This document shows positions 1-44,440 of a stretch of DNA of 64,000 nt, piece by piece. Source of the DNA: Agarophyton chilense (taxonomy: Eukaryota; Rhodophyta; Florideophyceae; Gracilariales; Gracilariaceae); contig JARGXX010000071.1 in NCBI GenBank assembly GCA_030374765.1, forward strand, positions 1,426,001 through 1,490,000, read 5' to 3'. The notes beneath the pieces were generated by a model. The model was not told the origin of the DNA and did not search any database. It saw only the letters and a list, made by a program, of their open reading frames with translations. The position numbers and the translations under genes were made by a program. The first letter of the stretch is position 1; each line of letters starts with the position of its first letter.

Positions 1-3000
1 ACTATGACTGGCGTGTTATTCATACTCCAGATATACTCTGTCCCATAATCCGCGAACAGCTCCTCTCCTTTTTCTATATCTCGAATTGCTTGCACAGAAA
101 GCAATCTATAGTCTCTCAACTGAAATGGGGTCCGCCCCGTCCCCGGAGTTCTGATGACCCGAACATTTGCAGTTCGGCGTCTCATTAACCCGTCTTCAAC
201 CGCATCCCTCTCCCTATCCCCTTCCACATACTTAGGGTCGTTAATTGTTCCCCCCAAGCAAAATGGAGCAGGGACAATCCACACCGGAATAAGAGACACC
301 CCACTAGTTCTTCCTGGTAGCTTGTGAAACACTTCCCCTCGGACGCTTATCTCCATCGCGTACTGCCAAAAACGATCAGCAGTCGCTTTCAATAGCCCCC
401 CTCCGTATGCCTTATGAACTTCCTTCCGCTTTGAAAGATCATGGTACACCAAAGTCCCGTAAAAGTAACAAACAGTCTCACCTTGTATCACCCGGCGTGT
501 TGTGTACACACCAACTACAGCATTTGCAATCCGACAACCACATACTGTCGCCTCCACTGCCAGAATAGCATTCCAATCCAACAGTGACATCTTTCCTTGA
601 AAACTTCTTGGCCACTCATACAGCGCCTGCCGTCGCCCAATCTCCGATATATTCTTATCCTGCCTCATGGAGGAGAGAAAATCCACGATATGGGGTGGAA
701 ACATCTGATGCTCGGGAAATCCGGTAGGTGTTTTCCAGGACTTCGAACGCTTTATGACGACGTCCGGAAACAAGCATGTCACTCGAGTCACAGCGTTCCG
801 AAAATCTTGCGTTATATGAATGTCCGTCTCGTTGTTCCGCATGCATGACGCAAATTTCACTGTAGCGGCGTGCTTCGCATGAGCAAAGCACTGCGGATCT
901 GGCTCACACCCTAGAAACTGACGGTGCTTTTCCAGTTCCATGCATGCCATGGCGGTTGAAAATGTTCCGGCGAAGAGGTCCACCACTATGTCTCCCGGCT
1001 GAGAAAACCTGCTGATGAGCTCCTTCAGCAAAGCGCGTGACTTCTATTCCGCCTGCACTTTTTGATCCGTAACTGCTCCTTTGGCATTCTTCCTTCTCCA
1101 TAGAAGTGTTTCACCATTCGACATGGGAGGCACTTGGTCAATCACGCTATGGTAACCCGGATATCGCGATGGTACATAGCTGAAGTTCTCATAGTTCACC
1201 ATGCCATGTTGTTCGGCGTAGGACAACCCGCTGCGAACTCCATGAATGGCGTACTCTGTTCCGGGAAACAGGGAGCACGAACTACGTCCGGGAGTACGCA
1301 TCGGATTGTCTTGAGAGCAAATGAAGTGCAGCTGGACCTTGTCCACGACAAATGACCTGCTCTTCTGTCCATTCTCATCCTTTGCACCAATTCGACCCAA
1401 CACTTCTTTCCATTCGTTCACCTGCTCAATCGCGCAGAATATAACGAAATGCCATCCCGGACGCAGAAGTTTAGAGATGAGCTTCGCCATCTTCACCATG
1501 TCTTGCTGGTTAAGAACGTCGTACCAGCTGTTTTTCCTGTTCTTCTTCGCACGTATATTATACGGCGGGTCCGTGAGAACCAACTGCACTTTCCCTATCG
1601 GAGAGACCCCATTGCTGCGCAATGTCTCGTCAATCTCGACCAGGTTCTCGAAAGTACAATTGTACATTCCGACAGTGCTTATCCATCTCCGACTCGCACT
1701 TTTGGAGAGACATTATATCATCCAGAGAGGTAAGGTCGTGAGGCGGCAGAATATCCACCGACTCAGATTCGACCGACCTTGGTCCAGCTGTGGAAGAATG
1801 CTGACCAACACCCATGTTCTCTTCCTCATTCCCGGTCCCACCCTCCACTGCCTCTCCACCCTCCACCGCCGGAGCCTCCGAATCTTTCTCAGGGGGTACA
1901 ACTTCTATCTCGTCTTCTTCCATAACCATAGTAGGTTCCGCCTTTGTCGCAGCCACCACTTCCACCTCCACACTCCCTCGCAGCTTTAATGGCGATATGT
2001 ATTCCGAGATGGTAGAGATAAGAGAGTTCGAGAAGCAGTCGAATCTCTCCGCAAACACTCTAGGCAAAGTGTATGTAAACGGTTTTAGAACGTCCCATCT
2101 TTCCGGAGCTGATATAGAGTAAAGCTGCTAATTCACCACCACTTTGTGCAGGTCAGCGAGAAACTCTTTGGCCAACATACGAAGTGGAGTGTCAACGTAC
2201 TCCGGCAGGTTCCACGCCCATGGGACGACATCCTCCTCCAATAGAGTACGGTTTCTACCAGGAGGGAGTCGTTGGGCCATGTCCTTGTGAGAGAACCCAT
2301 CCCTTCTGTTTCCGATTGCCTTGAATTGCATATCAGAATATCGTAGATGGATAAAGGGCAAAACCATGAATTCCACGCCAGGGAATCCCAAATACTGGAC
2401 GAAGATGTCCCACGCGTTATTGACGAGCTGCACACCAAAGCCCACACGCTGAGCTACTGGTTTGTCCTAAATCGCCACCTTCGAAAATGGCGTATCGTAG
2501 GTTCTGTCCTGCTTTCTTCGCTTACGGGAGACTCTTCTCTTCTCCATAGAGACCGACTGAATACAAATGAGGAACAGAAACCTCTGGAACATTGTAGGGA
2601 AGTCGGTCGCGAATGGAGCCCGGCTTTTGCTCGCCTTCGTTCGGGTTGTATCCAGACCTTTGAAGAACTCTGTCAAAGTGACATTCTTCGGGATGCCCTT
2701 GAACTCCACCGCCTCGTACGCGTTCCAAAAGTCCCTCACGCGCCTATCTGGGTCCCCATCCCTTGTATCCAGCAACCTCGCCGAGAAATAATTCTGACAG
2801 TTCGAGCCCCTCATTCCTACAACTCGAAGCTCATCTTCTGTGTAATTGGTGTGGTCGGGACCTAGGAGAGTATAAAAAAACTTCGCGGTCTCCGGTAGGA
2901 TGTGGCGATTGGCAATTGCGAAATCGATGAATGCAGTGTGCCCCACTTTTCGCGGCTCATCTTCCTCCCGCCTCGTTGATGCGTAACGATCACGCAAATC

Positions 3001-3123
3001 CAGACACGCCCTGATAACTTCATCCCCGTACCAAACAGTTTACCCATTTCGAAGGTGTCTGCCGCAGGCGATGAAGAAGTTCTCGTGGGTTCTGGAGCCA
3101 TTTATGTACGTGTTCAAATAACC
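1..3123 (-). pseudogene. DNA methyltransferase-SET domain fusion, decayed
   Basis: One reading frame on the minus strand holds a beta-class DNA amino-methyltransferase followed by a SET domain. Seen: motif IV DPPY at 1560-1571, then the SAM-binding motif DLFAGT at 963-980. This IV-before-I order is typical of beta-class N6-adenine/N4-cytosine enzymes. After about 100 residues without a stop the same frame gives a SET-like domain (590 to 1) with an N-terminal GVYTTR and a terminal GEELFADYG motif at about 41-70. The frame runs off the window. Upstream lie about 450 codons of unrecognised, coding-looking sequence and a Glu-rich linker (1700-1900). Breaks: TAA 3040-3042, TAG 2467-2469, TAG 2128-2130, TAG 1044-1046 and one frameshift near 1650. 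The start is not clear. The RxxNHS-type SET core is not obvious, so histone methyltransferase activity is inference. It faces a ParB-like gene from which it is divergently arranged. Confidence 0.72.
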
Positions 3124-3258
3124 TCACGGGCGGCCGTCACGAGAGCCTGAGTGAAAGAGAGCAGCGGGTGCGGGTGGGTACGGAAAGATTGTGAGTACGG
3201 TTGAGGAGCGCGCACGGAAGAACGGTTGTTGCGGAACGACTTCGCAGCTATCCTGGTT

Positions 3259-3346
3259 GCATTCTGTCGGCCGTCAGAGGAGCGCTTCGACTTCATCGGG
3301 GGTCCCGATGAAGTCCCCGCGCACCTCTGTCGGCCGACAGAATGCA
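3259..3346. repeat. Palindrome 1 (two inverted boxes)
   Basis: Left arm 3259-3300 and right arm 3304-3346 are imperfect reverse complements. Both arms begin (from outside) with GCATTCTGTCGGCCG and end at the centre with CTTCATCGGG. The TGTCGGCCGACA core is itself a palindrome. A large hairpin or cruciform is possible. The same box recurs in palindrome 2. Confidence 0.85.
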
Positions 3347-3392
3347 CCGTGTACACCTGGGCGTCCTAAAAATTACAAAATTATATGTATTA

Positions 3393-3468
3393 TGTCGGCC
3401 GACAGAGGTGCGCTCCGACTTCATCGGGACCCCCGATGAACTCGGAGCTCACTTCTGTCGGCCGTCAG
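3393..3468. repeat. Palindrome 2 (two inverted boxes)
   Basis: Left arm 3393-3429 and right arm 3430-3468 are again imperfect reverse complements built on TGTCGGCCGACAG at the outside and TTCATCGGG at the centre. Together with palindrome 1 this makes four copies of a box of about 38 bp in alternating orientation within 210 bp, followed by an AT-rich run at 3469-3495. Confidence 0.85.
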
Positions 3469-3554
3469 GGTATTTTTAATTTTTTATTTTCTTGTATCGC
3501 CTACCAAGCCAATAGGCGTGTTTGCGATGGAAAGAGACAAGGAGTTTCTTGAGT

Positions 3555-3606
3555 TTGAAACTAAGTGGACGTAGCTCAGGTTGAAACTAAGCGGACGTAG
3601 TTCAGG
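3555..3606. repeat. 26-bp tandem duplication
   Basis: Two adjacent 26-bp units, 3555-3580 and 3581-3606, start TTGAAACTAAG and differ only at two C/T positions. They lie about 145 bp upstream of the ATG at 3752 and could be promoter elements. That is inference from position only. Confidence 0.85.
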
Positions 3607-3751
3607 CTGACTGCAACGAACTGCTCTCGGGAGTGTTCCGGATAGTCGCCACCAAAGGAGCTCGATCCAATACGTCTTAGTCTGTATACCATAAATGGCT
3701 CAAAGCGCTCTGCGACCATTTGCAACCTCGACCGACTACGATCCGATTTAA

Positions 3752-6700
3752 ATGATGACTCGAGGCAAAGCGAAAGCGAGGGGTACTCCGCGGGGTACTC
3801 CACGGGCCACTCCGCGAAAAGCTACATCGGGAAACAATCTGGCTGGTGGGGATAGGGTGGCGTTGTTCCTGGCGGATGGGACAGGGAAGAAGAAGGGTAC
3901 TATGGTTGGCACTGCAGAGTTGAGAAATGTTGGGGGCAGTGGAGCGGCCGGGAAGGCGCTTTGCAGAGCGATGCATGGCCATTCGTTGCGCGAGTCTGCG
4001 AAGCCGGGAGAGGACTTGATGGCCATCTGAAGGACTGAAATTAAGGAGGGGATCAACTCCAAGTACCCGTACTCCTTCAAGGGAGCAGAGGAGCCGCCGG
4101 AGTTGCTGAAGGATATGGTGTCGGCAGGTATATACGCATGGGATACCTCGATGATGACACGCGTCTCCTCTGTGCTGACTCCAGGGCTTCCTCGGCCGGA
4201 GACTCCCAAAAGCGCGACCCCCTCGAAGGAGTCTGCTACGCCTTTGAGGGGGAAGAGGGCACAGCCAACAACAGTGCCGCCGGCCATGAAGCAACCCGTC
4301 AAGCCGAAAAAGAGGGTGACGATAGTGGATGATTCTGATGAAGATGTTGTGGAGGTGGGCTCAGCGGTGAATGTACGCGGGGATTCGCACACCGGTCCCG
4401 AGTTGGAGTTGTTTGATGACGGCGATGCCGTTCCTTCGCAGGAAGTGGATAGGACTCTCGTGGAAAAGAAGATCTCTGTTTCAGACTATGACCAGTGCCG
4501 CTTGATTGTGGACATAGATGACATACAAATCCCCGAGAAGACTGTCAGAAGTGTGAATGCGGAACACAAGGCGGCGACGATGGCAAAGTGCAAAAAGTTT
4601 GGCTGGCTTGCGTCGGCAGGGTCGATTGCTGTTGCCATCGTCGGGGGAATGGAATTAGATTTCAGTGAAATTGTTTACAATGGGAGGGTAGTGGTGCCTG
4701 TCATACTCATTGACGGTCATCACCGCGTCTTGGTTCTGCGAGATCTGAAGAATGATCCCTCTGAAGAGAGAAAGTGGTTGGAAATTGTGCGGTCTCTTGA
4801 TGTCGTTCTTTGGAGATGCAAGGACCGGAAGCCTTTATCGCTGAACGAAGTGCTCGGTCTTGGTAATGTACTCAATGAAATGAGTTCAAATGTGTTGAAG
4901 ATGAGTTTCGCCGACAAGGTTCATTCGACAGTGTCCTTCATTTGCAACTTGATTGACGATAAGAGAAACAAGTTGGCTGACCTTACTCCGACACGGATAG
5001 CTGGGGCGCTGAAGACGAGCGAAGCTATAGGACTCTACAGCTTGCGCCACTTGAATCGCTATGCGACTCTTGGGTTGAAATTCGTCAGGAGCGAAGGTCT
5101 CCTGGAGTTCTTTGAGAACGTATGCAAGGAGGGTCCAGTGCTAACGCTTGCGCATGTGTCGAGTGACTTGTTGTTAGGACTCGAAGACGAAATAATCCGT
5201 TTCGCAATCCGTTGTTTGCAGCTACATGTGACGGTTAGGATGGGTTCTACGGGGAATATGGGACGTTTCCAGGAGACGCGAAAGCAGTTCTTCCAATGCG
5301 CCATAGGAATGTTCCAACTATGCGAAAGGGCGGGAAAGGAGAAGGGTCTGACGGCGGGGAAGGTTCTAGACAGCACAATTGTGATGGGAAAGAACGAGGT
5401 GTCTTTAAGGGAGTACCTTTGCATGCAAACGGCGAAGATGGAGCTCAGTGGTTCGAAGCGGTTGTGGCCGGGGTTGGTGTCAAAGAGGATGAAAATCGCA
5501 CAAAGGCGGATTGAAGGCGGTCTGAAAGTGAGTCTGGCGTCCCCAAGTGCGGAGAAGGATGTGGTGGAGGTGCCACCTTCTGTGAATGTTCCTTCGTCTA
5601 GTGCTGGGGAGTCTGTACCCCACCAGGAAACCGTGGTTCCCAGACGCATCACACGAACTAGAAAAGGTACTGAGCGCGGGCTGGATGCTGCCCGTGAGAG
5701 GGTCATGGAACCTAGACAGAGAAAGGGGAAGAGAAAGGCTGTGGTCATTAGTGATGATGAACGCGAATATGAACAGCCTTTAAAGCGGAAGAAGAAGAGG
5801 AGAAAGACGGTGGGCACATCTGCGGCTCAAATACCGGCTGACGTGGTGGATGTGTTCAAGAAGATGAGCAGGAAAGAGCTGAAGCGCTTCTTGAAGGAAC
5901 ATGTACTCAATGTTTTCTCATCGAGTGAGGATGAACTGGATGATGACGGGGGGCAGGGTGCATTTGTAGGGGACGAAGAGGAGGAAGGTGTGCAAATGCG
6001 TGGCTTCGAAGACAATAATCCGGAGGGTGTTCCGAAGGGGCTGAAGAGGGCGGGACCGTATGCGGGGGGGTCGGGTATGTCGTGGGTGTACTTGGTGAAT
6101 GCACTTCCGAGCGAGTGGCCGGCGGGTGAAAATGGAGTGAAGCATCAGCACCTCTGGATGCAGATGATTTACCTACGGAACAAGCACAGGGCGGAGTGCT
6201 TGAGGGTAGAAGACTTGAAAAGTGTGCACCATGCGGTTTATTGGCGTGCTGCTCATAACAGGCACAAGGAGCTGAGTTCCACGAAAGAACCGGTTCTTGG
6301 GGTGATTCTACCGACGAAGGACCACCCTGTGAATGAAGAGCAGGCGATATGGATGGCAGCAATGGAGAGGAATGACTTGGCCCGCGAGTACTTCGCGACT
6401 AAGAGAAGTGAGCTGATGGAGAAAGGAGTTTGTGTGCTGGAAGAGTTTGCCACGGACGAGGGGATGGCGGATGAGGCGAAGAAGAGGGGGGTAAACTTCG
6501 ATAGGGATGTGACTGGGACTTTGCTAGAGGTCTTCCAGACGGATTTTTTGAACCAGCCGGACTTGACGATTGAAGGGAATAGAAAGAAATGGGACCCTAT
6601 AATCAACGCTGGTGAGGAGAGAGACGCTGGAGATAGAATGAAGGGAGTTGGGCGGTACATTACGACGAAGGTGGGGATTGTGGATTCTGTGGAGGGGGAC

Positions 6701-7438
6701 GAGAACAACGTTTTAATGGTGAGGAAAAGGGCATTGTTGGATGCGAGGTTTGGACATATTGCGACCGCTCTTCGGTTGTGCAACAACCGGTCGGGGAAGA
6801 AGAGGATTTATGCCCCTGAAACAGGGGGGCGAGTGCTGTGTACGGCGGAGGGCTGTCCAAGGCAGGTGTTACATACGGACTTTCGAGGACTGACCGATGC
6901 CGAGAAGAACGTCGGAGAGGTTCCAGGGTTCTTCATGATGGCGTCGGGAGCGAGTTTGTTTATGCTTTGGGTTTGTGAGAGGTCACATAACATGTACGTG
7001 CCCGACGACAGGAGCTTGAAGCGGCTGTCTCGGACGATGGTAGTGAAGAAGTTCAGGATTCCGCCGTACTCCATTTTTATTGGAAGAGGAGATGTGTTTC
7101 ATGCTGGAGCTGGATACGAGGATGCATTGGTTAAGGAAGTTTGCATGAGGTATCACATGTACTTGGTACCGGAAGGGTACAAGCTACCGGACGCAGTGCA
7201 TAGGCAACCAGCATTTCGACCTAAGTTCGAAGAGGATGATTCCAACAAGGGTGATAATGAAGACGTCCGGGTAGATGAGGATGAGGAATTGGATGAAGAC
7301 TATAAAATGGAAGATGTTGAAAGTGGGGAAGAGGAGTATGAAGAAGAGGATGATGAACCTGGGATGGGTCTCAACTCGGCTAACACAGATGGAGACTATG
7401 AAGACGGCGGTATGATAATGGATGACGACGACGACTAG
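3752..7438 (+). CDS. ParB-like / 2OG-Fe(II) oxygenase-like nuclear protein (one in-frame TGA)
   Basis: The frame runs 1228 codons from ATG 3752 and is broken once by TGA 4028-4030. Without that codon's repair the longest open part starts at ATG 4115. Seen in order: a TPRGTPRATPR N-terminus; a ParB/sulfiredoxin-type motif IDGHHR (codons near 4709-4725); about 200 helical-looking residues; a Lys/Arg-rich segment with KRKKKRRK (about 5790), a likely nuclear signal; then a C-terminal region starting ELMEKGVCVLEEF with HTD (6872-6880), FHAGAG (His codon 7100) and a downstream RYH. This HxD...H...R order fits the double-stranded beta-helix 2-oxoglutarate/Fe(II) oxygenases such as the phytanoyl-CoA hydroxylase-like group. 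The last 75 residues are Asp/Glu-rich. Role in DNA or chromatin modification is inferred from domains and from the divergent methyltransferase-SET neighbour. Both domain calls come from motifs by eye. Confidence 0.6.
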
Positions 7439-7519
7439 ATAGTATCTGTTACCTATTGAAAAATAAAGAGTACAATTTGAGGTAATATGTGGAGTAGTCC
7501 CCTTTTCTTGTAATAGTGA

Positions 7520-8670
7520 TCAGTCGTCTTTCAGTAGAAACTCCTGAACAACTGGATTGAAACGCGTGAGAGCAACACTTGCTTTCAATTTCTCATAGTG
7601 AATGACAACTGTCGAAGATATCAAGATTACGACATCCACTGTGTTACCAAGCAGTATAAGAACACCAGGGCCCTCAATGCGAGATGTGGAAAAGGCGGTT
7701 GAAGAGAGTGCAGCGAAAGTGCATGCGGACAGCCTCATACCGAGTAGTCGGAAGGTTACAGCCGGACTGGATATGAATAAAGCCTGTTGAAAAGAGTGGG
7801 AGAGGGCGCCAAGCACGAGGTTCATAAAAGAGGTTCTCCGTGGTTCTGGGGTCATTGTGAGCTTTGTGTTAAGATAGGACTCTGGAAAGAAGGATTTAGA
7901 AACAAGCTGGAGAAGATATGCCAAAGCGCCAACTGCGGCCCCTCCTGTGGAGAAGGCGATACAATTTGTCTTCACGTCTGATGAAAGGGTACCGCTGACT
8001 GGAATGAAGCGGTGAACGAGGAAAAGTATGGCGTTGAGGGGGATGAGTAGAGTAAGGAGTAGAGCCCCGAATTCCAGAAAGGCTCGTTTCTTCCAGGTAT
8101 ATCGCTGGTTTGGATTGAACGGCGTAGTTTGTAGAGACCCGTATAACGCGTTTATACATTGTACGCCTCCTTCGATTATGAGAATGTGTAGCAGGCTTTG
8201 GATAGGACACCTCAATAGCGTTATGAGAATGAACCGAAGGAGAGAGTTGAATCTGAATGGAAGCGTATATTGCAGAGCTGGGTCTATAACTCCGAAGAGT
8301 GTAGTTAGTGTGATTGTGAACGTTAAGTTCGATGTGAAGAGTGTTTGCTAACTGAACATCTTAGTAAAGGCGTTCCGGTTTGCTAGTCTTCCTTGTACGC
8401 TGCACATAGGTAACGATATGATACCGCTCTTTGAACAGTTGTTTCAGAGTATCTGAAGGAGGTGGGAGAGGAGAGGAGGAGAGCGAAAGGGTCGCCGGTG
8501 ACGCCAGGGAGACGCGGGGAGCCGGCTGGGATGAAGAAGGGGAGAGAGGAATGGAAAGGGGGAGGAGTTGGAGAGAGTCGGCTGAAGAAGAGGAGGGTTG
8601 GTAAGGATGTGGAGAAGAAGGGTGGGAATGTGTGTGTGGTGGGGCAGCCGGGTGTGAGGAACTTGAGCAT
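7520..8670 (-). CDS. Putative multi-pass membrane protein, two exons
   Basis: Exon 2 (7520-8347) encodes about 275 residues with four to five hydrophobic segments and no usable ATG. Directly upstream on the minus strand is an acceptor-like TTAG (8348-8351) with TTTACTAA (8362-8369), a yeast-like branch site, just before it. A donor GTATCA at 8424 joins in phase 0 to an open frame starting at ATG 8670. That predicts exon 1 (8425-8670), a 77-bp intron and a protein of about 357 residues with a Pro/Ser/Thr-rich N-terminus. I recognise no family. The splice model is inference. The protein tail ends LLKDD just before TGA at 7520. Confidence 0.45.
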
Positions 8671-8999
8671 TGGGGAGGTGGACGAGGTTGAGAATGCGGT
8701 GGTGGACTTCTTCAACCTCAAATACCCTCCCGGTGGAAGGCTGGAGCCTAGTAAGCAAAAGGGCCAGTAAGGACGTAGAAGGTACTGACGACTGCCTTGG
8801 TATGGATCTCCACCTAGAGCGGTCAAAAGTGACCAGTAAACTGCAAATGCAGATTAAACTGCATTAAGTGGTCAAAACACTAAGATGCATGGAGTTATTA
8901 TTTCCAAAAATTTTTTTCAGGTGCCTAACTAGCGCAATCTGCAAAATTCTTAGATTTTTGGGCTTTTTATTTACAAAATTAGCTATCTAACACACTTAT
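8671..8999. other. Non-coding, AT-rich
   Basis: No gene is seen. The sequence becomes AT-rich at about 8880-8990 and then meets the broken end of chromovirus B. Confidence 0.5.
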
Positions 9000-9553
9000 C
9001 TAGCATTCCGAGAACACAGACGCATTTTAAGCGGGCCAATAGGATGTCAATAGCTCGCTGGGAAGTAGCGGAGGCGTTGGTAAGACCAACGCGCATCCGT
9101 TTGAAACGTTAGAGAGCGGAGTGACACGCGAAAGCGGTTGTATCCTGGTCTTGCTTCCATACCGAAACTTTCCAGTATCCCCAATTGGCTTCAAGGATTG
9201 TAAAGACGGTGGCGGTGTCTAACGAGTCAATGTATTCGTCCATTCTTGGGATTGGATACACGTCCTTGACGGTGACGGCATTCAACCGGCGGTAGTCGAC
9301 GCAAACCCTCCAGGAACAATCCTGCTTTGGAGCCAGTACTACTGGAGAAGCCCAAGGCGACTGAGCCGGTTGAATGACTCCTGCTCGAAGCATTTTATCT
9401 ACTTGTGCCTTTTCCTCGGCGCGTGCGGCGGGTCCGGCACGGTAGGGGTGCTGAGAGATGGGTCGGGTGTCCGGTAGCGAATCAATCCGGTGTTCCGTAG
9501 AGGCAATCTCACCAAGGGAGCCGTCCCACATAGTGGTGAAGTCCCTTTAGAGT
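9000..9553 (-). pseudogene. Chromovirus B, reverse transcriptase fragment (3' piece)
   Basis: Minus-strand frame with reverse-transcriptase N-terminal motifs: MWDGSLGEI, PYRAGP, SPWASPVV, VDYRRLNAVTV, YPIPRMDEYIDSL, then (past a stop at about 9109) RFKRM..GLTNA.AT and IDILL, fading near 9000. It lines up with the same part of chromovirus C. Joined across element A it continues the frame at 20122 (RLREL | ..DFTTMWDGS), so this is the 3' piece of element B. Everything downstream of the RT palm (RNase H, integrase, 3' LTR) is missing. Confidence 0.85.
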
Positions 9554-12267: not shown

Positions 12268-15200
12268 TTAGAAATGGGATGTGCCCATGAGCCCGACTAT
12301 CGAGGAGTCGATCTCCCTGGGGAGTGGTAGTCGCATGCGTCGATGATATCACACGAGCTGCGAACGGGTGATATGAGCTATAGGTTCCCACGTATCCGCT
12401 TCCGGAGGAAAACCGTACCAACGGACTCGATACAGTAATTCTCTAGTATCTTCATGCTCGCGATGTTCACATATGCGATCCATAACATATTTCTGAGCGT
12501 TTCCCAATGCTTTCGCTGTTGGCGCGAGACTCCTGTTAACAGGTTTGAAATGCCTTAGGGCTGACCCAAGCGTTTCTGTGTCAGCAGTCTCGGCGTTGCT
12601 AAGCGTTCGCTCGTCGACTAACTGTCGTTCTGCCCGCAGGGGCAGTGTACTCATCCCTTGAGAACCTTTCTCAGATAAAGAGCTATCCTGTTTTCCAGGT
12701 TCCATAGAACCGTACTTCTTGCTACTTCTCAATTCCATTCGTGGATGAACTTCCTTCGGTTTATCCGATTCTGACCGCTGTTCAATGGACGATGGTGCTT
12801 GCACCACGACAGGAGGCGATACCTCTTCTTCTTCCTGCCCACGAGGGATGGAAGCCGATATCGGCGGAACAGCGAATGGCGCTTCACCTGACGGTTCAGC
12901 CTGAAGCGACATCGGCGCGTTTTCGCGTGCACTCGGTTCCAAGTCCTTGGGGCCAAATTCCCAAACATCTTTCCTGCTTTCAGGTTCCACTTCTGTACTT
13001 ACAGGTGTGCGCGTGCCACGGGGCATATCCCGATACTTCGGAAGCTGTCCGTGATTGGCCTACGCAACCGCTGGCGGTGGGAGATCAGGAGCTTTCTCCT
13101 CCGCTCGAGCCTTTGGTGGCGGTTCACTCTCCCTAGAGTCACTTGGGCTTTTCCCTTGACGTTCCGTCGCACTTGCCTCCTTAGTTCTACCAGATACCTG
13201 GACTTCCACTTGCGGGTCAGGCGCGACTTCAACGCGATCGCGCGATACACGTTCAACGTCGTCACCTGTCTTGATGACCACTGTGTCTTCATTAAGGTCC
13301 ACCACTTTGAAGGGTCCAGCCGCTATCCGCAACAACTTATGACGAGATTCTTCCTGTTTGTCAGGTCTTTCGACTCGCACGAAGACGTGACCTCCTACTC
13401 AGATTGCCGGATTTCCTCTTCGCCTTCTGGCGTCATAGTTTCGCTTATAGCGAGCTTGCGTCTTTGATAACTCCTTAGCTGCTTCTTCCACTCTGGCCTT
13501 CAGGTCATCCCTCCATTTCAGATGGTACTTAGCCGGGGTCGGTGCGTCCAATTCTGTCTCGTCGTCGAGCGCAACCGGTAAAGCCGGAGGGTTACGTGAG
13601 AGCACGAGGTCGAACGGTGCCGTCTTTGTAGAGGTATGCACTTGCGTATTGTACGCGTAGCACAGAGTATCTGTAAACATGTCCCATTCTTTCGGGTGGT
13701 CCGCGATGTAGTGTCGTAATGCTGCTATCAGCGTGCGGTTGAAACGCTCCACCTGACCGTTGCATTGCGGATGATAGGTCGTGGTACACAAGTTTCGAAT
13801 GCCCATAATGCGGCAAACATTCTGAAAGAACTTCGCAACGAATTGCTTCCCATTATCTGATAACAGAACTTCTGGTGGTCCGTATATAAATACCCATTGT
13901 TTGATAAACGCCTGTGCGATTACGGTTGCGGTTATCCGCTTCAGAGGCATAGTCCGCACTAGCTTCGAGAAGTGGTCTGTGATTACCAATAGGTAGCGAT
14001 AACCTCGCCTTGAGCGAATCAATTCCCCTAGGATGTCGATACTGACGTATTGTAAAGGCGCTTCCGCCTGGAATAACGTTATCGGTTTCCGCTTCCTGTA
14101 AAGCTTCACGAGATTCTTCGAACATGTTGTGCACAACCTCACTGTAGCATGGCAGTCCATTGCCAAATTAGGCCAGTAAAAATCTCTTCTTAGAGTCATG
14201 AACAAATTCGTTCCTCCTGGATGACCAGACAGCCTGCTGTAGTGTGCCAGATGGAGTACTCGACTCTTCAAGACGTGTGGAATCAGGATTTGATCATGCT
14301 TTTCGACATGTCTTAACAGTATTCCTCGTGAATCGAGTGAAAAGGGGAGCTCCTCCCCCCCGTTAAGACGAGAGCGTATCGACGCACAAAACGCGTCGGC
14401 GTGTTGCTCATTGAGGAGCTCAGTGCACGAGATTCGCTCGAGTTGAACTGAAGGGTCAGTGTCTGCTAATGCAAGGAACGGGTCTGCATCCGAATAATCA
14501 TCAAGGGTCTCTTGTTTCTCTTCTTCAAAAGATGGCGAATGGGTCTCCATGTAGAAGCAAGGTATCTCTTCATCGATTTCGCCTTGGGTTTCGCCCAGTG
14601 TTTTGAGTCGCGATAGCGCGTCAGCTTGGATATTGGCCAATCCCTTTTTATACTTCACTTCGAAATCGAATTCAGAAAGGCGTAAGCGCCATCGTGTGAG
14701 ACGACCAGACGGGTCTGTAATGGACAGTAACCATCGTAGAGAAGAATGATCCGTGTTAACGGTAAAACGTTCTCCTTGGAGATACGGTCGCAATGTGGTT
14801 AGAGCCCAAACGACTGCAAGGCATTCCTTTTCTGAAACTGAATACTTCTTCTCAGCTGCGTTCAGCGATCTTGACCAGTAACCAATGGGTTTGCGTTCAC
14901 CATCAGGGTGTGTTTGAAAAAGGGCACACCCTACTTGGTACTCGCCAGAGTCGGTATCTACTGAGTATGGCACGTTGGGGATGGGCAGCGTAAAGACTGG
15001 GGCTGTAATAATCTTTGTCTTCAGCGTGTCGAACGATTCCACTTCAGCTTGTCTGAATTGTTCCAGCTGTACTGGTTGTCCTTTACGCAGCTTTGCGTTG
15101 AGTGGGCCGCTATATGCGAGTATCGCAGCACCAATCGTCGGTAGACGTTGCACAAGCCGAGTAAAGAACGCAATTGCTTCTGTGTCGACGGAGGTTGTAC

Positions 15201-17100
15201 TTCGCGGAGAGCCGCTGTCTGTGCCTCTTGAATGGCAGGCTGTCCCGGCTTGATCACATGTCCTAAATACCGGACGGTGCAAGCGAACCATTCGCATTTC
15301 TTGAACTTCAAGGTGATACCTGCGCTCTGCAGTGCTTTTAGGATCTCCTCGACATGCCGTAAATGGCTTTCTACATCCTGGGAAAAGATGATCACATCGT
15401 CCAAATAGACTAAACAAGTCTTCCACTTGTATCTTGAGAGCAAGATGTTCAGAGTACGCTGGAAAGTAGCTGGTGCATTCTTTAAGCCAAAAAGCATCCT
15501 TTTGAAACGGTAGAGACCGGCATGACACGCAAATGCGGTTTTATCTTGGTCTTCTTCCGCTACAGGCACCCCCCATTAGCCAGAGTTGGCGTCCAACGTG
15601 GTGAACACGTTCGCTTCTCCTAAGCTGTCAATACATTCGTCCATTCGAGGCAACGGGTATGTATCCCGAACTGTAACTGCGTTCAGTTTTCGATAATCGA
15701 TACAGAATCGTAAAGAACCATCAGGTTTCGGAACCAGCACTACTGGTGAGGCCCAAGCAGATTGAGCTGCTTCGATTACTCCTTCTTCCAGCATTTTGCT
15801 GACATTCTCCTCCTCGATTTGGCGAGTTCGCGGTCCCGCTCTGTAGGGTGGTTGGAAGATGGGTCGTGACCCTGGGACCAAATCAATGTGGTGTTTCGTA
15901 GCTGAGATCTCTCCTAGTTTTCCACTCCACATGGATGTGTAATTCTTTAGCATAGACCTGATCTTCGTTCTGTAGGGTTCCGACACATGTGCTAAGTCTA
16001 GCTCATCGACCAGGCTCTCTGGATCCTTTGCCGATTGCAATTGATCTCCAGACGGAGTTTGCAGTTCTTCGTCTGTGTCACCTACATGGGTTAATCCCAA
16101 TACATCTGCAGTAGAAACATGAGTAGGGACCACCACTGTGGGATGAGGCAAAGCTGTTGCAACAACCTCATTCTTCGGTATCTGATAATCGTTATCGGTG
16201 AAGTTACTCATTAGTATCCAAAAGGGGCTACCAGGATCAACCTGAACAATGCCGTTAGCGACTAGCAATCCACGGGATTCGTACATACGAGTATTCGGTT
16301 GAAATACCACGAGTCCGTGTCGTTCTGTTCTTACTTGAACCCAAGTTTGGGTTTGCGCCTTCAGCATGACACTCTTCGCTACTCGAATCCTCGGCGAGAC
16401 ACGTCCTCGGGATTTCCCGTATTCCATAGATGGTGGAAATGGAGGTGCTTCGGGGCAACGACGCATTGGCTTGCGAACAATTGGTACCATTGATCAATCA
16501 TCTAGTTCCACTAGTTTTCTTCGCGGGCGAATGGCTTCGACAAACCTATCGCAATAATCACATCCCAGTACCACTGGTGCAGCTAACGTCTTACAGACGA
16601 TGAAGTCGACTGGGACTACAAAGCGTCCCAAACGCACCACGAGTCGAACTGTTCCCAGTGTCTTCACAGCAATTTTGTTGGCATCCCGGATGTCCAGTGA
16701 AGGACCGTATCGAATAAGTTCTAATTCAGCAGGAGCGAGCTCCGATTCCCGTGTAAAGTTCGGACCAGCACCTGTGTCCAGGATAGTCAATCGACGAGAT
16801 AACAGATTCCTGTCAGAGCCGATGTTGGCATAGACCTTATTGTTTCTTTTAGACATTACCATGAGGTAACTTTCCCGTTTTGACGGACAAGTATAACGTC
16901 GCCGAGGACGATGTAACTCACAGTCAAACTGTACTCTCGTTCCGTCCGGCGGATTGATTCCGTACGGCGGAAATTTGGGAGGCCTCAAGAGAATCTTGGG
17001 CTTCCAAGCGCGGGAGCAGGGAGGCGAGCTCTCCTTGGTCAGCACTACGGGATGGACTAGTGCCGACCCCCTAGGGGCTCCCTCACTTAGTTTTCCGGTT
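12268..17100 (-). pseudogene. pol: Chromovirus A pol (PR-RT-RH-IN-chromodomain), broken
   Basis: Read in the -1 frame relative to gag. Order: aspartic protease with DTGAGPNF (about 16755-16780), RT with DYRKLNAV, YPLPRMDECIDSL and YLDD (about 15400), RNase H with DTDSGEYQVGCALF and TDHSSLRW, integrase with an H-H-C-C finger, SIDIL, SDNGKQF and QVERFN (the D, D, E triad), then a long polar linker and a chromodomain (YVMDR..., ADTWEP) at about 12350-12490. Breaks seen: TGA 16494-16496, TAA 15576-15578, a frameshift near 15100, TGA at 13399, TAG at 13060 and TGA 12349-12351. Family assignment is certain; activity is lost. Confidence 0.93.
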
Positions 17101-19240
17101 GCACCGGCTTATTCGCCTCAAAGGCGCCTCTTCCTACCGGGGTTCCGGGTTGTAACACTTCACCATTCTGAGCAACCGGCTTGTCCGTCCGGCGCATTGG
17201 TGTCTGAGAAAACCAACTTTTGGCTTTCCAATACATGCCCGCCGGTACGCGGCTCTTTTTCTCTTCTGAGAGTGCTTCATAATTCGTCGTGATACGACTC
17301 AGATCCTTTGCAGGAAGCGTGCATTCTGCACTCAAATGGTGTTTGCCATAACATGAATAACATATCAAACCGTCACGATGGTTGGTCAACAAAGGTTGTG
17401 AACGGTATGCCGTGCGAGTATCCACCCATCCGGGGTTCCCGTTCTTAAAACCTCCTTGTGGAGTCACCGTGTAGGAACGGTACATAGTGAGACGGCCCTC
17501 CATAGCCATTAGGGCTTCCTCGTCCTGAGATTCCGAGTGTGGGAGATCCACTGTGGGTACAGAAGAGTCCGTATATTCCATTAAATGGACCGCCTCCTCA
17601 TGCAAGTCACTCCCTTTGGGTGCCAACGACGAATCTCGTGAGTGCACTGGAGATTCTAGATGTAGCAGTTTTCTGCGCTGATTAACTCTGGCGGAGATCT
17701 TCCCCTTACCCATTGAGGTTCCAAAAGCCACTGAACGACGGGGGCTACCACGCGCTCTGGCCGCGTTTCCTTCAGCTTTCGCAAACTGAACTAAGTCCAA
17801 AAAGGAGACTCTTCCATGCTTCTCTCGATATCGAGCTACCAACGACTTGATGATCGGGTCCAGCCCATCGATGAACAAGGTAGTCTTGTCCTCCGTCGAG
17901 TGGACCTTTCCACAGCGGACTGAGGCTTTGTTAAGCCTTGAGCTGTACTCAGCTTCGCCCTCCTCAGGCTTTTGGGTCACATCAATTAGGTCCAGGATCG
18001 CCTGACGTATCGCGTTTGAAGTCGCGTAACTGCGCAGCAAATACTGCACCGCCTCTGGCCATGAGGTAACGACGCCTTCATCGGCTGTCAATGATCCGCA
18101 TGCGGAACGATATCGCTCTAAAGCAAAACCCCTCAGGAAGTGTGGTAAAGACACAAATGCCTGTGGTTCACTCATCTCTAGAGTGTCTGCTTTGGCAACG
18201 AATCGAGTGAGAAACTCGATAACGATAATAGGGGTTTTCCCATCAAATGTTAAATCATTAAGGCCGATCTTCAATCGTTTGATATGATCCTTCACCTTTG
18301 CGGTTTCGCGTCCTAAGCGCTTCTTGCTCTTCATCTTCAGACGATAGTACCTGTAATTCAGGAACTTCCGATATAGCGGATTCGTGCACGGGAGCACCTT
18401 CAATCCTCTGTAAGGTGAGCCTTTTTTTCTCATTAACCACGAAGACGTGTTCTTCTTCCGAGATCAAGACCTTCTATGACCATCATCACTGTCGTCGTCA
18501 TCTGACGTATCTGAATCATCAGAATCATAAGTATTGGAACTGAAGCCCTCTGTACTTGACGATTCATCACTCGAATCACGTGCGGACTTCCGCTTCTTAC
18601 GTCGTGACTTCGACTTCTTCGAACGAGCTTCCTTCAAAGGAGCTCCTTTCTCATCCAGCACGACTGGTTTAGCAGCAGTCTGTGCATGAGCTGCCGCCTC
18701 CAGGCGTTCTAAACGAGGATTAGCTCGAGTAAGACCTTCCTCTACATCCACGGTTAAGCCGGATAGCACATCGGGCGTACTCCCGTACCTCTCCAGTAGA
18801 TGGTTCAAATCCTCACGTACTGTTTTCACTGATGCAGAGACATGCTTCCCATCGTCTTGACGAACGAGTGCTTGATGCGCACTGCGTAATTGTTCGACAT
18901 CAGCGATAAGAGCAGCGATCTGCGATTCCAACGCAACCATGCGCACACGCGAAGCGCTTGAATCAGACTTGAGACGACACACTTCCCTGCGCAAAGCATC
19001 CTATTCTTAAGCTCCGACGACCTCAGGGTCAACTACGGCTTCTGTGGTGGGCGTGACTGCCGCTTCCACAGGGGCCGGTACATCCGAGAGATCTCGTTCA
19101 TCATTCACCGAGCGTGAGCGCGACATCGCTTGACGATACAGCCGCTCTCCGGCTTCAACAGATGAGGCGAGCCTCGGTTTCGGGGGTGGTTCCGCAGGAC
19201 CGGGGCGACCAGTACTCGACTGGCTTCGGGTCTTCGGCAT
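17087..19240 (-). pseudogene. gag: Chromovirus A gag, broken
   Basis: One frame of about 718 codons from ATG 19240 to TAA 17087-17089, interrupted by TAA and TAG near 19007-19015 and TGA 18464-18466. Contains a Ser/Asp and Lys/Arg-rich central segment (about 18470-18640), a capsid-type region beginning YRKFLNYRYYRL, and a CCHC knuckle CYSCYGKHHLSAEC near 17330-17375. The stop lies directly after GAAAAC, a candidate -1 slippage site for pol expression. Confidence 0.9.
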
Positions 19241-39016: not shown

Positions 39017-42000
39017 CTAGGCGTTACACAGCGTAGCTCGAATCGCGGTACCCGCTTGGCGGTGATATCGTACCACCTGGGAACGGAGAAAATGCTCGAT
39101 TGGCTCGTCGGAGTCAAACGCAGCATCGTATCCGTACCAACGGACGAGGTATTGTAAAGTCCCGCTCTCGTCGTACGAGTGCCCGAGGATTCGGTCGACC
39201 ACATACTCTTGTATGTATACTTCCCGGCCTTGCCGTGTGATGGTAACACCAGCCGAAGTCTCGGTGGGTTCCCCGCTGGGGTACTTCCCGTCGGACAGGC
39301 GTTCCGCGCTTTCCTCCCGGTACTCCGGTCGTACCGCGAGTCTGCGGTTATCCCGTCGTAAACTACCGCTATTGCGGGATAGCGTCTTTGCTGCAGCGGG
39401 TGTCTGCCGTGCACGCCGGGGTGTGGTCGGGTCACGTGCCGCCTGAGACGGATGGCGGGCACGTGCTGTGCGATCCGCCTCCCCAGCGGGGTCCGTGGCC
39501 CAGCGCGAGCGGGCTGACACTTCGCTCGCCGTGGGACGCCGCTCGGCGGGCGCCAGCTCTTCCCCTCGGGGGGTGTCGCCGTGATGCGCCGCGTGCGAGG
39601 TCTCAAAAAATACACCCTTTTTTGGGGCAGCATTTTTTGAAAAAATTGCTTTGCCATCGGGCGCCGCGCGCGAGCCCTCAAAAAATTCACCCTTTTTGGG
39701 GCCAGGATTTTTTTTCAAAAATCCTCCCTTTCCACGGGCAGACTTCCCATTTCCAACGTGCGCGTCTCTCGGCTCTGCCGGTACTTGACTCTCCCCAGCG
39801 CCAGGGTCGGCTGTAACGCTTTTCGTGCGTTCTCGTGATCGTGGCATGTGCTGCTCCGAGCGCACTCCTGTGCGAAGATGACGTCCGTCCGCGGCGGTAA
39901 TTTCCGGCGCGGCCGGTTGACCATTCACTTGACGTGTTCCATGACTTCGAACGTCCCCTGCGGGGCTGCGCGGGCCAAGTCCAGGCGTTGGCGTGCCCAC
40001 TGTGTCTGACTTTTCCGCACTGCGGATAGTTGCGTCCAGCTTCCCTTGTTCTTCAGACACTTTAAGGCGCGAGCCTTCCGTTAGCGACGGTGGGTGTTCC
40101 TGAGAACCAAATGTGGCTTCATCGTCGCGTGCCGCGTTCGCGGGAGCGGGCGTAGCTTCTGGCGGGATGCCCGATTGAGTAGAGCTGCGTGACATCCGTT
40201 GCGACGGCGAAGATTGCTCCGAACGGAGGTGTCCCTCCCCCTCCCGAGGTGGAGCCACGGAGGGCAGCGAGCGAACCGCATGGCGGGAGTAGATCCCCGG
40301 TCGAGTGAGACCGGTTGTTGGCTGGCGAGAAAAGCCAGCCGGTGCCGGCACAGTCGGCAGGCCATCTACTAGGTATGGTAGGTCCGAGAATCCCCGGGTG
40401 GGGTGAGACAGAACGCTGGGGCGTTCAAGTGCCGGGGTACCCGGTGTTGCTGATGTCGTTGGAACCCCCGAGTCCTGCTCTGCAGGTGGTTGTAAAATAA
40501 CCTCAGGAGAGGCAGGCGGAGCCAAGGTAACCCTGTCACGGGAGAGTCGTTCGTGATTGTCTCCCATTTCTACGACGACCGTTGTCGGTGTGACCGAGAT
40601 AACCTTGAATGGTCCGTCCGCCACAGGCGAGAGCTTATGGCGTTTCTCCCTTTCGGGGTTATAGTATTCCTTACGTACGAACACGCGGTCGCCAGCCTTC
40701 AATGGGTGGGGGCGCTCCCGCCGTAGACGGAGATCAAAATCCCGCTTGTAGGCGGCTTGGGCGCGTGCCATTGCCTTCCGTGCGGCCGGTACCAGCTTGG
40801 TCAGCCATGTTTTCCAGCGTTGCCGGAAGTCACCCACTGATGGGAAGGAGTCCAGCGTAGCTTGGGGTTCGAGGGCCACTGGTGGTGGGGTCCTCGACAA
40901 CACCAATTGGAATGGGGAAACCCCGGTAGTCCGGTGCACTTGCGTATTATACGCGAAGGTGATAGCGTCCGTGTATAAGTCCCAAGTTTTTGGGTGGTCA
41001 GCGACGTAGGAGCGGAGCGAAGCCAGCATGGTCCGGTTAAACCGTTCAACTTGCCCATTACATTGGGGATGGTAAGTCGTCGTAAACAGGTTTTTGACAT
41101 CCAGGATGCGGCAGACATCCTGGAAGAGCCGCGACGCAAACTGCTTTCCGTTATCGGACAATAACTCCACAGGAGGGCCATAAACGAAGATCCAGTGCGT
41201 GACGAAAGCTTCCGCCACGGTGTAGGCCGTAATCCTCCGTAGAGGGACTGTCCGAACCAGCTTCGAGAAGCGATCCGTGATAACGAGTAGGAACTTCTTC
41301 CCACGCTTCGTGGCGACTAATGGCCCGAGGATGTCGATAGCGACAAATTCGAGGGGCGCCCTTGCGGGGAATAGGTGCAACTTCTTCGCGTTCCGACGGA
41401 GTTTGACCCGGTTCTTGGCACATTGCGTGCAGAAGCACACAGTTGCATAGCAATCAACCGCCATTGCGGGCCAGTAGAAGTCTCTTCTGAGGGTGAGGTA
41501 GAGTTTTCTTCCGCCGGCATGGCCGCTGACTTTCGCAAAGTGCGAGAGGTGTAGTACCCTTGTCTGCAAGGAGTGTGGCACCACGACTTGTGGGGTGTTT
41601 TCGACGGTACGGATTAGGTAACCGACGTCATTTACCTCAAACGGGAGGGTTTCACCACCGTTAAGGCGGGCGCGTACTTACGCGCAAAACGGGTCTGCAA
41701 ACTGCTCTCGGATCAGTTCCTCCGGTTGGATGGGTACGAAATTTCCCGGTACGGGGTTCTTCGTGGGGTCCTCGCTCGAAGCGAGGATAGCGTCAAATTC
41801 AGCGTCTGTTTCCCAGTCATTTGTCCACTCAGGATCACTCGGGTCCGGCGCTGCCGGTTTCGGTTCCTCCATTGTGAAGCATGGTATATCGTCATCCTCC
41901 GTTGGGAGTGCCTCCCCATTCGTGGGTAACCGGGACAGGGCGTCGGCCTGAGTGTTTTGCGCTCCTTTCTTGTATACGACCTCGAAGTCGTATTCCGCTA

Positions 42001-44440
42001 GGCGGAGCCTCCACCGCATGAGGCGGCCCGATGGGTCGGAGATGTTCATCAACCACCTCAATGAGGAGTGATCCGTGTAAACGGTGAAGTAAACGCCTAG
42101 AAGGTAGGGACGGAGCGTGCTGAGTGCCCATACTACGGCTAGGCATTCCTTCTCCGAGACGGAGTAATTCCGTTCGTGCACGTTGAGTGAGCGTGACCAA
42201 TACCCGATTGGATGGCGTTCCCCGTCTGGGGTTGTTTGGAAAAGAGCGCAACCAACTTGGTAGTCGCTCGAATCCGTATCCACCGAGTACGGAAGGTCCG
42301 GTTGGGGCAACGATAGGATCGGCGCTGAGGTGACAGCCTCCTTTAAGGAGTTAAAGGCATCCGCCTGGGGGCTGTCAGGGGGTCCAGTTTTGGCGGTTGG
42401 CCCTTCCGCAACAGGGCATTCAGCGGCGCTGCAGTGTCCGAAAAGTTCGGGATGAACCGTCGGTAGACGTTGACAAGTCCTAAGAAGGAGCGGAGCTCCG
42501 TTTGCGTCCTAGGTTGTTTTGCCTCTACGAGGGATTTAACTCGAGCCTTCTCGATCATGAGCTGCCCTGGGCGGATAATGTGCCCAAGGTACTTCACGGT
42601 GTCCGTGAAAAACTCGCACTTCCTCAGCTTGAGGGTAATCCCAGCATCCCGTAACACGGTGAGAACGTCCCTTACATGGGTGAGATGGTCCTCGAGATTA
42701 TCTGAGAAGACGATGATGTCATCCAGATAAACGAGACACGTCCGCCACTTAAAGCGGTTGAGCAGGATGTCAATCGCTCGTTGAAATGTGGCCGGGGCGT
42801 TGGTGAGGCCGAAAGGCATCCGCTTGAAGCGGTACGATCCTGCGTGGCAGACAAAGGCGGTCTTGTCGCGATCGCTCTCCCGAACGGGAACTTGCCAATA
42901 CCCCCAATTTGCATCCAACGCCGTGAACACGGTTGCTCTCCCAAGGGAGTCAATACATTTGTCCATACGAGGGATGGGATACCTATCCCGTACCGTGACG
43001 GCATGGAGCCGACGATAATCGATACAGAAACGCCAGGTTCCGTCGCTCTTGAGAACCAGGACCACTGGGGAAGCCCACGGCGATTGAGCCGGTTCTATCA
43101 CTCCGGCTCGGAGCATTTTCTCCACTTGGAGCTGTTCCTCCTCGCGAGCCTTTGGGCCTGCCCTGTAAGGGGGTTGCGAGCAAGGAAGTGAGTTCGGCAG
43201 CAAATCTATCCGATGTTCCGTCGTGTTAATCTCTCCTAAGGAGCCATCCCACATAGTGGTAAATTCTCGCAACATGCCTCGTAGCCGTTCGCGATGCGAG
43301 TCTGGCACGTGGCCGAGGTTAAGGTTCTCCAGCGCCTTCAGGGCATCGGTTTCCCTGGTGTCTTCGGGCTCTGGTAATCCTGTAACAGGCAGTGACTCCG
43401 AGTTTTTCGGCGTGGCGGACTCCGCTCCCCCCTTCCCAGACGAAGAGACGACGTCGTCGGTGCGGTCGTCCTTGGGGACTGAGATCCCGAGAACATCGGC
43501 GGCGGTGGTCTTCGTCGGAAGCATGGCCAATGGGTGCGGGGTGACCGAGCCAATTACTTGGTTCTTCACCAGATACTGGGGGGTACTGCCAAGGTTGGCG
43601 ACTAGGAGCCGGAAGGGTACATCCGAAGTCACATTGAAAATTCCGTTTGCGACGGCCAATTGATATTTCTCGTACAACGAGGCAAGGGGTTGGATAACCC
43701 GGAGACCGTGTTGACGGGGATTGACCTGCACCATAACCTGAATCTCAGGAGGTATCGCAACCGATACAGCAACACGAAGCTTGGGAGACTCCCGCTGGGC
43801 GTGTGGCGGTTCTTGCGCAGCAGGTAACGGTACTTGCTTTGGCGATGCCCGCTTCGGCGGTTTCCGAACTATGGCGACGGTGGAGCCGTCGTCGAGTTCG
43901 ATTATCCTCTGACGGGGTCTGATGGCCTCGACAAACCTGTCGCAGTAGTCACAGCCCAGTCTTACTGGGGTAGCCAGGGTGAGGCACACCACGAAGTCGA
44001 GCTTCACAACCGAGGTGCCCAGCGTCAAGACCCAAGTGATGGTCCCTACCGTTTTCAACGGGTTATTATTCGCATCCGCGACGTCGGGAACCGCTTCGGA
44101 GCGAATGTGAGACCGCAGTAGCGGGGGTAAAGCACTCTCGACGATGAAGTTCGGGCCAGCACCTGTATCCAGGACTGTTAAGTATCTCACCAAAAACCGG
44201 GGGCTCAGGCCAAGGTCGGCGTAAACTTTATAGTTTCGCTTGGCGATCACCATGACTCGATCCGGGATCCGGTTATTCTTCACCCGTATCCACGGTCGAC
44301 GCAAAACACCGAGGTGTTCCGAGTCTGCGTCAGCGGTGTCCTTCCTCGAGAGGATCTTCACCGGGGAGCGAGGCGATGACGCCTTGGGCGTCAACAGTCT
44401 CGATTCTGAGGACGCCCCTCCAGAAGAGGAGACTCCCCCA
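39017..44440 (-). pseudogene. pol: Chromovirus C pol (PR-RT-RH-IN-chromodomain), two breaks
   Basis: In the -1 frame after gag. Protease DTGAGPNF (about 44150-44175), RT with DYRRLHAV and YLDD (about 42735), then a frameshift near 42350; RNase H with DTDSSDYQVGCALF and TDHSSLRW; TAA 41678-41680; integrase with H..H and C..C finger, AIDIL, SDNGKQF, QVERFN; a long linker; and a chromodomain (YVVDRILGH...YLVRWYGY) ending near 39060. In the chromodomain the usual TWEP is SDEP, so an aromatic cage residue is absent. The linker contains two copies of a PKKG.FFE unit (39600-39720). The 3' frame (39017-41584, 855 codons) is open throughout. Confidence 0.93.

Follow-up and report, generated by a model that had tools for sequence, protein, structure and literature searches.

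Transposons that carry epigenetic enzymes are already known. According to a study of fungal transposons, Plavaka DNA transposons and others include types that encode a TET/JBP dioxygenase, and the same text cites the HarbingerS and MuDR transposons of Phytophthora as carriers of a SET histone methyltransferase gene (PMC12730594). In bdelloid rotifers, N4CMT joins a bacterial-type amino-methyltransferase to a C-terminal chromodomain and is stated to be without eukaryotic homologues (PMC8885841; PDB 8s9m). Here, we describe a Plavaka-class transposon of the red alga Agarophyton chilense whose cargo includes a DNA methyltransferase (MTase) fused to a SET domain in one polypeptide, together with a divergent gene for a predicted ParB-fold protein. 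The element was recognised in a stretch of 64,000 nucleotides (contig JARGXX010000071.1, positions 1,426,001 to 1,490,000, called the window below), and we regard its identity and that of its domains as close to certain. In the literature searched, which was mostly open-access, we found neither the MTase-SET fusion, nor its red-algal Plavaka setting with a ParB-fold partner, nor the second carrier at contig ends described below, and no paper there joined Plavaka with a DNA methyltransferase and a SET domain.

The red-algal element shares with fungal Plavaka a Plavaka transposase domain, 2-bp target duplications, terminal inverted repeats (TIRs) and a cargo enzyme concerned with epigenetic marks. 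It differs by its size of about 18 kb, its CGTC[A/T]GTG... termini, its MTase-SET and ParB-fold cargo and its palindrome array. In fungi, PlavakaA elements end in 5'-TGT..ACA-3' and PlavakaB elements in 5'-CATCA..TGATG-3' (PMC12730594); the red-algal termini fit neither pattern, and the element is placed in the Plavaka class by its transposase. The Phytophthora elements likewise carry a SET gene on a transposon, but their transposases belong to different classes, and nothing in the citing text speaks of a DNA methyltransferase fused to it. N4CMT has a chromodomain, a reader, where the red-algal protein has SET, a writer, and it is described as an allelic pair and not as transposon cargo; a chromodomain was not found in the red-algal locus L006 by Pfam at E up to 1, in a scan that did find SET. 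CcrM and M1.HpyAVI, which the red-algal protein matches best, are stand-alone bacterial adenine methyltransferases without SET, and a Chondrus crispus protein (P0020), known here from its protein record alone, belongs to the same MTase-SET family as the transposon protein.

In the window, the MTase-SET gene starts at position 3101 on the minus strand and runs to position 1, its stop codon lying about 10 bases beyond the left edge. The sequence-only reading had placed the DPPY and DLFAGT motifs of a methyltransferase and a SET-like domain in a single reading frame of the minus strand, interrupted by one TAG (1044-1046), and both the positions and Pfam bear it out: a single frame holds DPPY (1571-1560), DLFAGT (980-963) and the SET region (~512-42), with the TAG at 1046-1044. 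The piece 3-1043 matches N6_N4_Mtase (2.7e-10) and SET (5.9e-6, residues 178-334, that is window 512-42), and the piece 1047-1712 matches N6_N4_Mtase at 5e-4, under the curated cut-off. The fusion frame thus stood, but not its extent of 1667-1 nor its single stop: beyond the more distant start, the window copy holds two more stops, three in all, as well as two frame breaks, and is a pseudogene. None of these lesions occurs at the same places in the nine other copies compared, three of which (C73, C99 and C13) are broken at different places. Six of the ten copies compared have one uninterrupted MTase-SET frame of 1,036 or 1,043 residues. Scoring the whole genome gave 44 copies from 232 candidates, 44 being a lower bound, of which 13 lack an internal stop and 12 of those are full length.

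The fusion is not a read-through artefact because intact copies of the whole frame exist. That two unrelated genes might share a frame by chance in a single copy could be argued from the stop between the MTase motifs in the window, but uninterrupted frames across many copies and homologues refute this explanation, which we consider to have practically no chance of being right. Two other accounts of the interrupted frame were rejected. Introns separating the pieces were dismissed, the intact copies being one frame; an alternative genetic code with TAG recoded, suggested by the three in-frame TAGs of the window copy, was dismissed because the nine other copies have sense codons there, so that the TAGs are private damage. 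The MTase-SET fusion is confirmed, broken in the window and intact elsewhere in the genome. Neither outcome that the sequence-only reading had named as refuting it came about: HMM (hidden Markov model) searches detect a SET domain, and homologues hold both domains in one uninterrupted frame.

Three parts of the protein can be delimited on the minus strand: a family-specific conserved N-terminal region (approximately 2097..2519, residues ~195-335 of the intact protein), a permuted, beta-type amino-DNA-methyltransferase domain with DPPY then DLFAGT (876..1589, approximate limits mapped from the intact protein) and the SET domain (42..512). The first was recognised in 93 of 99 homologues by an HMM trained on the family, and its predicted structure is mostly confident. 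In the MTase half, the catalytic DPPY precedes the FxGxG-type motif for S-adenosylmethionine within an N6_N4_Mtase fold, the hallmarks of beta-class amino-DNA methyltransferases, and CcrM and M1.HpyAVI are its best structural and sequence matches. DPP[YF] is present in all 68 aligned family rows, among which the MTase motifs are invariant; DPP[YF] being an adenine-type motif, this suggests specificity for N6-adenine rather than N4-cytosine. NCBIfam returned only adenine- and DNA-methyltransferase matches for the fusion, all below cut-off, and the best 50 rows of each fold search with the fusion model were all methyltransferases of the MTase fold and so bear on the MTase half of the protein. 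The suspected SET domain was found by Pfam (PF00856, 27.1 bits for the window copy and 23.4 bits for L006, against a cut-off of 22.4) and, independently, by profile matches to KMT2C (3.6e-5), EZH2 (3.2e-4) and SETD8 (1.4e-3). SET enzymes typically have an NH motif and a catalytic tyrosine; among the 68 rows, N961 is kept in 63, N986 in 68 and Y1026 in 62, and the usual His is Asp in 57. Both methylase activities are probably present, an assignment that we make with some reserve.

The gene is cargo of a mobile element. Window 1-9022 is the right-hand part of a Plavaka-class copy of 15,868 bp (G000:C71:1419155-1435022), delimited by aligning ten copies with their flanks and by its termini, target duplication and TIR pattern; the left 6.85 kb, including the transposase, lie outside the window. 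Its TIRs are at C71:1419155-1419177 and 1435000-1435022, the right one being window 9000..9022 on the minus strand, followed by the 2-bp target duplication CA at 9023-9024. Within the stretches compared, homology of the other copies to the window copy always stops at the same two places. The 23-bp inverted termini (5'-CGTCAGTG...CACAGACG-3') start with CGTC[A/T]GTG and are present within 2 edits in all nine copies with both ends, each of which has an exact 2-bp target duplication; the ends of the tenth copy were not found in the stretch compared. Eight of these nine copies are 18.0-18.8 kb long, and the window copy is shorter because of an internal deletion. Left of the window, a plus-strand frame matches the Plavaka transposase (PF18759, 1.1e-14, above cut-off), full length (1,137-1,148 residues) in four of the ten copies. 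The sequence-only reading had guessed at a mobile or viral element; the mobile element is confirmed, and Pfam scans of the element's main frames gave no viral family at a credible score.

Plavaka domains were scored at 123 places from 235 candidates genome-wide and at none in 14 control genomes, a weak control since those named elsewhere are prokaryotes. Of the 44 MTase-SET copies, 38 are followed on the 3' side by such a domain in convergent orientation at a distance of up to 9 kb (4.7-5.1 kb in 37 cases), where chance predicts 0.3; for the remaining six no such place is listed. The TIR occurs 150 + 139 times in the genome with at most 1 mismatch, and its reversed control 0 times. Two of the ten copies, C117 and C10, show 0-2 private changes in each of four 3.0-3.8 kb pieces and have therefore transposed recently. 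Private changes are uneven along single copies (in C86, for example, 37, 2, 0 and 5 in successive pieces), as if such copies were mosaics produced by frequent gene conversion or recombination between copies. Pairs of facing TIRs about 3-5 kb apart enclose a Plavaka domain (for example C16:982452-986708, C79:834534-839094 and C25:1014693-1017734), and shorter elements apparently coexist with the 18-kb form. The 2.2 kb absent from the window copy contain, in locus L016, an open reading frame (ORF) at 7784-8683 on the minus strand with a weak match to the C-terminal domain of ketopantoate reductase (ApbA_C, 0.044, below cut-off), perhaps further captured cargo.

ORF2, the divergent partner of the MTase-SET gene, occupies 3752..7438 on the plus strand, with one in-frame stop near 4030 in the window copy and homologues P0100-P0103. 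Three of the ten copies have it as an uninterrupted frame of 1,247 residues. Its predicted structure has a ParB/sulfiredoxin fold with a D-G-x-H-R motif (4484..4963, plus strand, mapped from the model of L016). Towards its C-terminus, a 2-oxoglutarate (2OG)-oxygenase-like motif, HTD ... H.G ... RYH, may be read at 6875..7159 on the plus strand (mapped from L016 and kept in four aligned sequences); it follows the pattern HxD..H..R. Pfam assigned none of the element frames scanned to a TET/JBP family, and NCBIfam and PDB sequence searches with ORF2 found nothing of use.

The interval between the two genes holds two palindrome units of about 77 bp (3264..3468). Each is bounded on either side by CTGTCGGCCGACAG and centred on CATCGGG(N3)CCCGATG; the outer palindrome or close variants lie at 3264, 3327, 3392 and 3455, the inner one at 3294 and 3422. 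The outer palindrome has no site in the 64-kb window other than those between the divergent genes, and one unit, folded as single-stranded DNA, reaches -46 kcal/mol (z -13). In the nine copies whose intergenic interval was located, the outer palindrome occurs 2-20 times and the inner one 1-7 times (at most 2 mismatches), always inside the interval and nowhere else in a stretch of ~19-20 kb; the tenth copy, C99, whose interval was not located, has four and two, respectively. For comparison, shuffling the sequence of one copy yields 0.1 of each palindrome per 20 kb. The variable number, the confinement to the divergent promoter region and the adjacent ParB-fold gene together suggest a putative parS-like or operator array. 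The same juxtaposition of iterated palindromes and a ParB-fold gene might be taken to mean that the cargo assists transposition itself: methylation would tune transposase binding, excision or the choice between replicated daughters, much as Dam methylation regulates some bacterial transposons, and the ParB-like protein would aid segregation or target choice. We find this improbable, since the palindromes are internal and not terminal, shorter Plavaka elements with the same TIRs apparently exist, and the SET domain would be left unexplained.

The transposon is not the only carrier of the fusion. A genome search with PF01555 gave 116 places, among which a second group, mostly frames of 1,130 or 1,141 codons, lies near contig ends: 23 of the 26 rows matching profile positions 1-216 are within 22 kb of a contig end, a zone that makes up about 7% of the assembly, three of the 23 being on contigs shorter than 60 kb, for which proximity to an end says little. 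Contig C10 was read, and the other contig-end rows probably belong to the same lineage, to judge by their scores and frames. On C10 (G000:C10:1-22000), a second MTase-SET gene (L189 744-4082) and a RecQ/OrsD helicase gene (L192 3-5591), both on the plus strand, form part of a tandem repeat at the contig end. The encoded protein has both Pfam domains (2.1e-16 and 1.3e-5) and is 35% identical to the transposon's protein and 59% to protein P0002. The tandem repeat that holds its gene measures 12.04 kb, is 99.92% identical over 9.97 kb and contains CCCCTAAA arrays in its interior; the Plavaka TIR was not found in this repeat. The neighbouring gene encodes a RecQ-type helicase with OrsD (DEAD 5.4e-12, Helicase_C 4.6e-10, OrsD 2.7e-6; PDB RecQ 2.6e-20), which we take to resemble the telomere-linked helicases of fungi.

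A homologue search found 99 proteins, down to 27% identity to the query, 44 of them with both Pfam domains precomputed, and the family-trained HMM detected SET in 89 of the 99, most of which had also trained it. Two homologues come from named species, Chondrus crispus (P0020) and Pyropia yezoensis (P0092). P0020, called "adenine specific DNA methyltransferase" in the database, has both Pfam domains and is 38% identical over the part searched; P0092 shows the MTase half only because the record ends where SET begins. In the MTase-domain tree, a split supported at 100/100 sets 25 family rows, among them the Plavaka element, the contig-end lineage, P0020 and P0092, apart from 28 bacterial and viral rows. 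The MTase domain itself is of a bacterial type. A viral or prokaryotic origin of the fusion itself was rejected, as the loci kept match the MTase part only: across 80 of at least 105 viral and 80 of at least 106 prokaryotic relatives, matches were confined to query residues 449-776 and none reached SET, and at E up to 1 the SET profile built from the family matched none of the frames of those loci in which it was tried, namely forward-strand frames of 181-1,499 codons with [DNS]PP[YFW]. P0099, a metagenomic protein on a long branch of the family, has MTase, SET and a C-terminal HTD..HAG..R in one chain; a PDB search with it returned only MTases.

These data bear on whether the fusion is a mere passenger, a host or bacterial gene captured without function in the element. 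The bacterial type of the MTase domain and the neutral evolution of the gene after insertion would be in keeping with that, but the 99 homologues reach down to 27% identity, with MTase motifs invariant in 68 aligned rows, the fusion occurs in two different settings of one genome and the 25 family rows fall on one side of a 100/100 branch. A fusion so conserved would hardly have been kept as a passenger, and we consider this explanation very unlikely.

The C5 DNA methylase profile (PF00145), run in six frames, exon by exon, on a possibly incomplete assembly, found 0 places, while 10 of the 14 controls were positive. C-to-T changes among copies amount, per site, to 0.060 at CpG, 0.065 at CpC, 0.033 at CpA and 0.039 at CpT; there is no CpG-only excess, CpG being close to CpC though above CpA and CpT, which does not point to decay of 5-methylcytosine (5mC) but leaves some room for it. 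These changes are commoner at CC and CG after a pyrimidine. An MT-A70 search of the genome gave no match but is uninformative, the controls being equally silent.

MTase and SET on one transposon protein suggest that the element rewrites its own chromatin. We propose that the ParB-like ORF2 protein would load on the palindrome array, as on a parS- or operator-like site, and bring the MTase-SET protein to the element, where the MTase domain would put an N6-methyladenine (6mA)-type mark on the DNA and the SET domain would methylate a lysine on histones or on another chromatin protein. The combined marks may hold the element's genes in transcription-permissive chromatin, allowing continued transposition, and the 2OG-oxygenase-like stretch of ORF2 may serve to erase or modify a methyl mark. 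Such self-marking would best explain, together, a host without recognisable 5mC machinery, an element with an amino-MTase-SET protein of its own and a ParB-type protein with adjacent palindromes. A permissive mark is favoured because the SET profile is best with KMT2C and because a 2025 survey places 6mA in regions permissive for transcription that carry trimethylated lysine 4 of histone H3 as well (PMC12695648). We hold self-marking with permissive marks to be evenly poised between right and wrong, and a self-directed anti-silencing role to be possible but rather doubtful.

The marks could also be repressive, serving self-restraint or host-directed silencing of the element, its relatives or competitors and limiting copy number. 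Repressive marks are written by SET enzymes that act on H3K9 or H3K27; the profile also matches EZH2 (3.2e-4), at least 44 copies are present and a C5 methylase to carry out silencing was not found. The best match is nonetheless KMT2C, not an H3K9 or H3K27 enzyme, and the recent transposition of C117 and C10 means that any restraint is incomplete, so that repression seems to us unlikely, if somewhat less so than a role in transposition proper.

Several observations weigh against self-marking by a ParB-recruited writer. (i), the SET motif is unusual, Asp replacing the usual His in 57 of 68 rows, and post-SET cysteines were not found at the C-terminus by inspection. (ii), ORF2 has no credible Pfam match, its Foldseek match to ParB alone reaches only E 0.011, and the link between ParB-like N-termini and the ORF2 profile is modest (E 9e-5 over 61 columns at 59% probability; E 1e-3 over 19 columns at 22%). 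(iii), the C-terminal model of ORF2, which covers the oxygenase-like pattern, is of low confidence, and the 2OG link between ORF2 and P0099 is not significant (E 0.016). (iv), shorter elements with the same TIRs and a Plavaka domain apparently exist, so that movement does not strictly require the cargo. (v), the MTase-SET gene drifts neutrally after insertion, singletons (28 synonymous, 82 non-synonymous and 6 stop) differing little from what neutrality predicts.

In eukaryotes, it is generally understood, methylation of DNA and of histones is coupled by proteins that are distinct from each other. In the present case, a single polypeptide holds both writer folds; a transposon spreads it, and relatives of it are found in at least one further named red alga. 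This allows a natural test of whether the two marks can be set by one enzyme. The system also bears on what takes the place of a C5 DNA methylase in a genome where none is recognisable, and on how selfish elements control their own chromatin; as its copies are numerous and nearly identical, methylome tests by long reads would be direct. It is tempting, if distinctly speculative, to see in it a mobile epigenetic system: the DNA methyltransferases of this alga may largely belong to selfish elements, namely Plavaka and the RecQ-helicase repeat at what may be chromosome ends. The fused enzyme would then set linked marks on DNA and histones, nucleated on the iterated palindromes by a ParB-like protein, which would amount to a parS-like centre transferred into eukaryotic chromatin.

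Rfam gave 0 matches in the window. A CCT-theta gene there is 92% identical to that of Gracilaria domingensis and marks the host as a gracilariacean red alga. Frames of Ty3/gypsy-like long-terminal-repeat retroelements (reverse transcriptase, RNase H, integrase, chromodomain and gag) occupy 13399-18433, 39017-44394 and 59893-62586.
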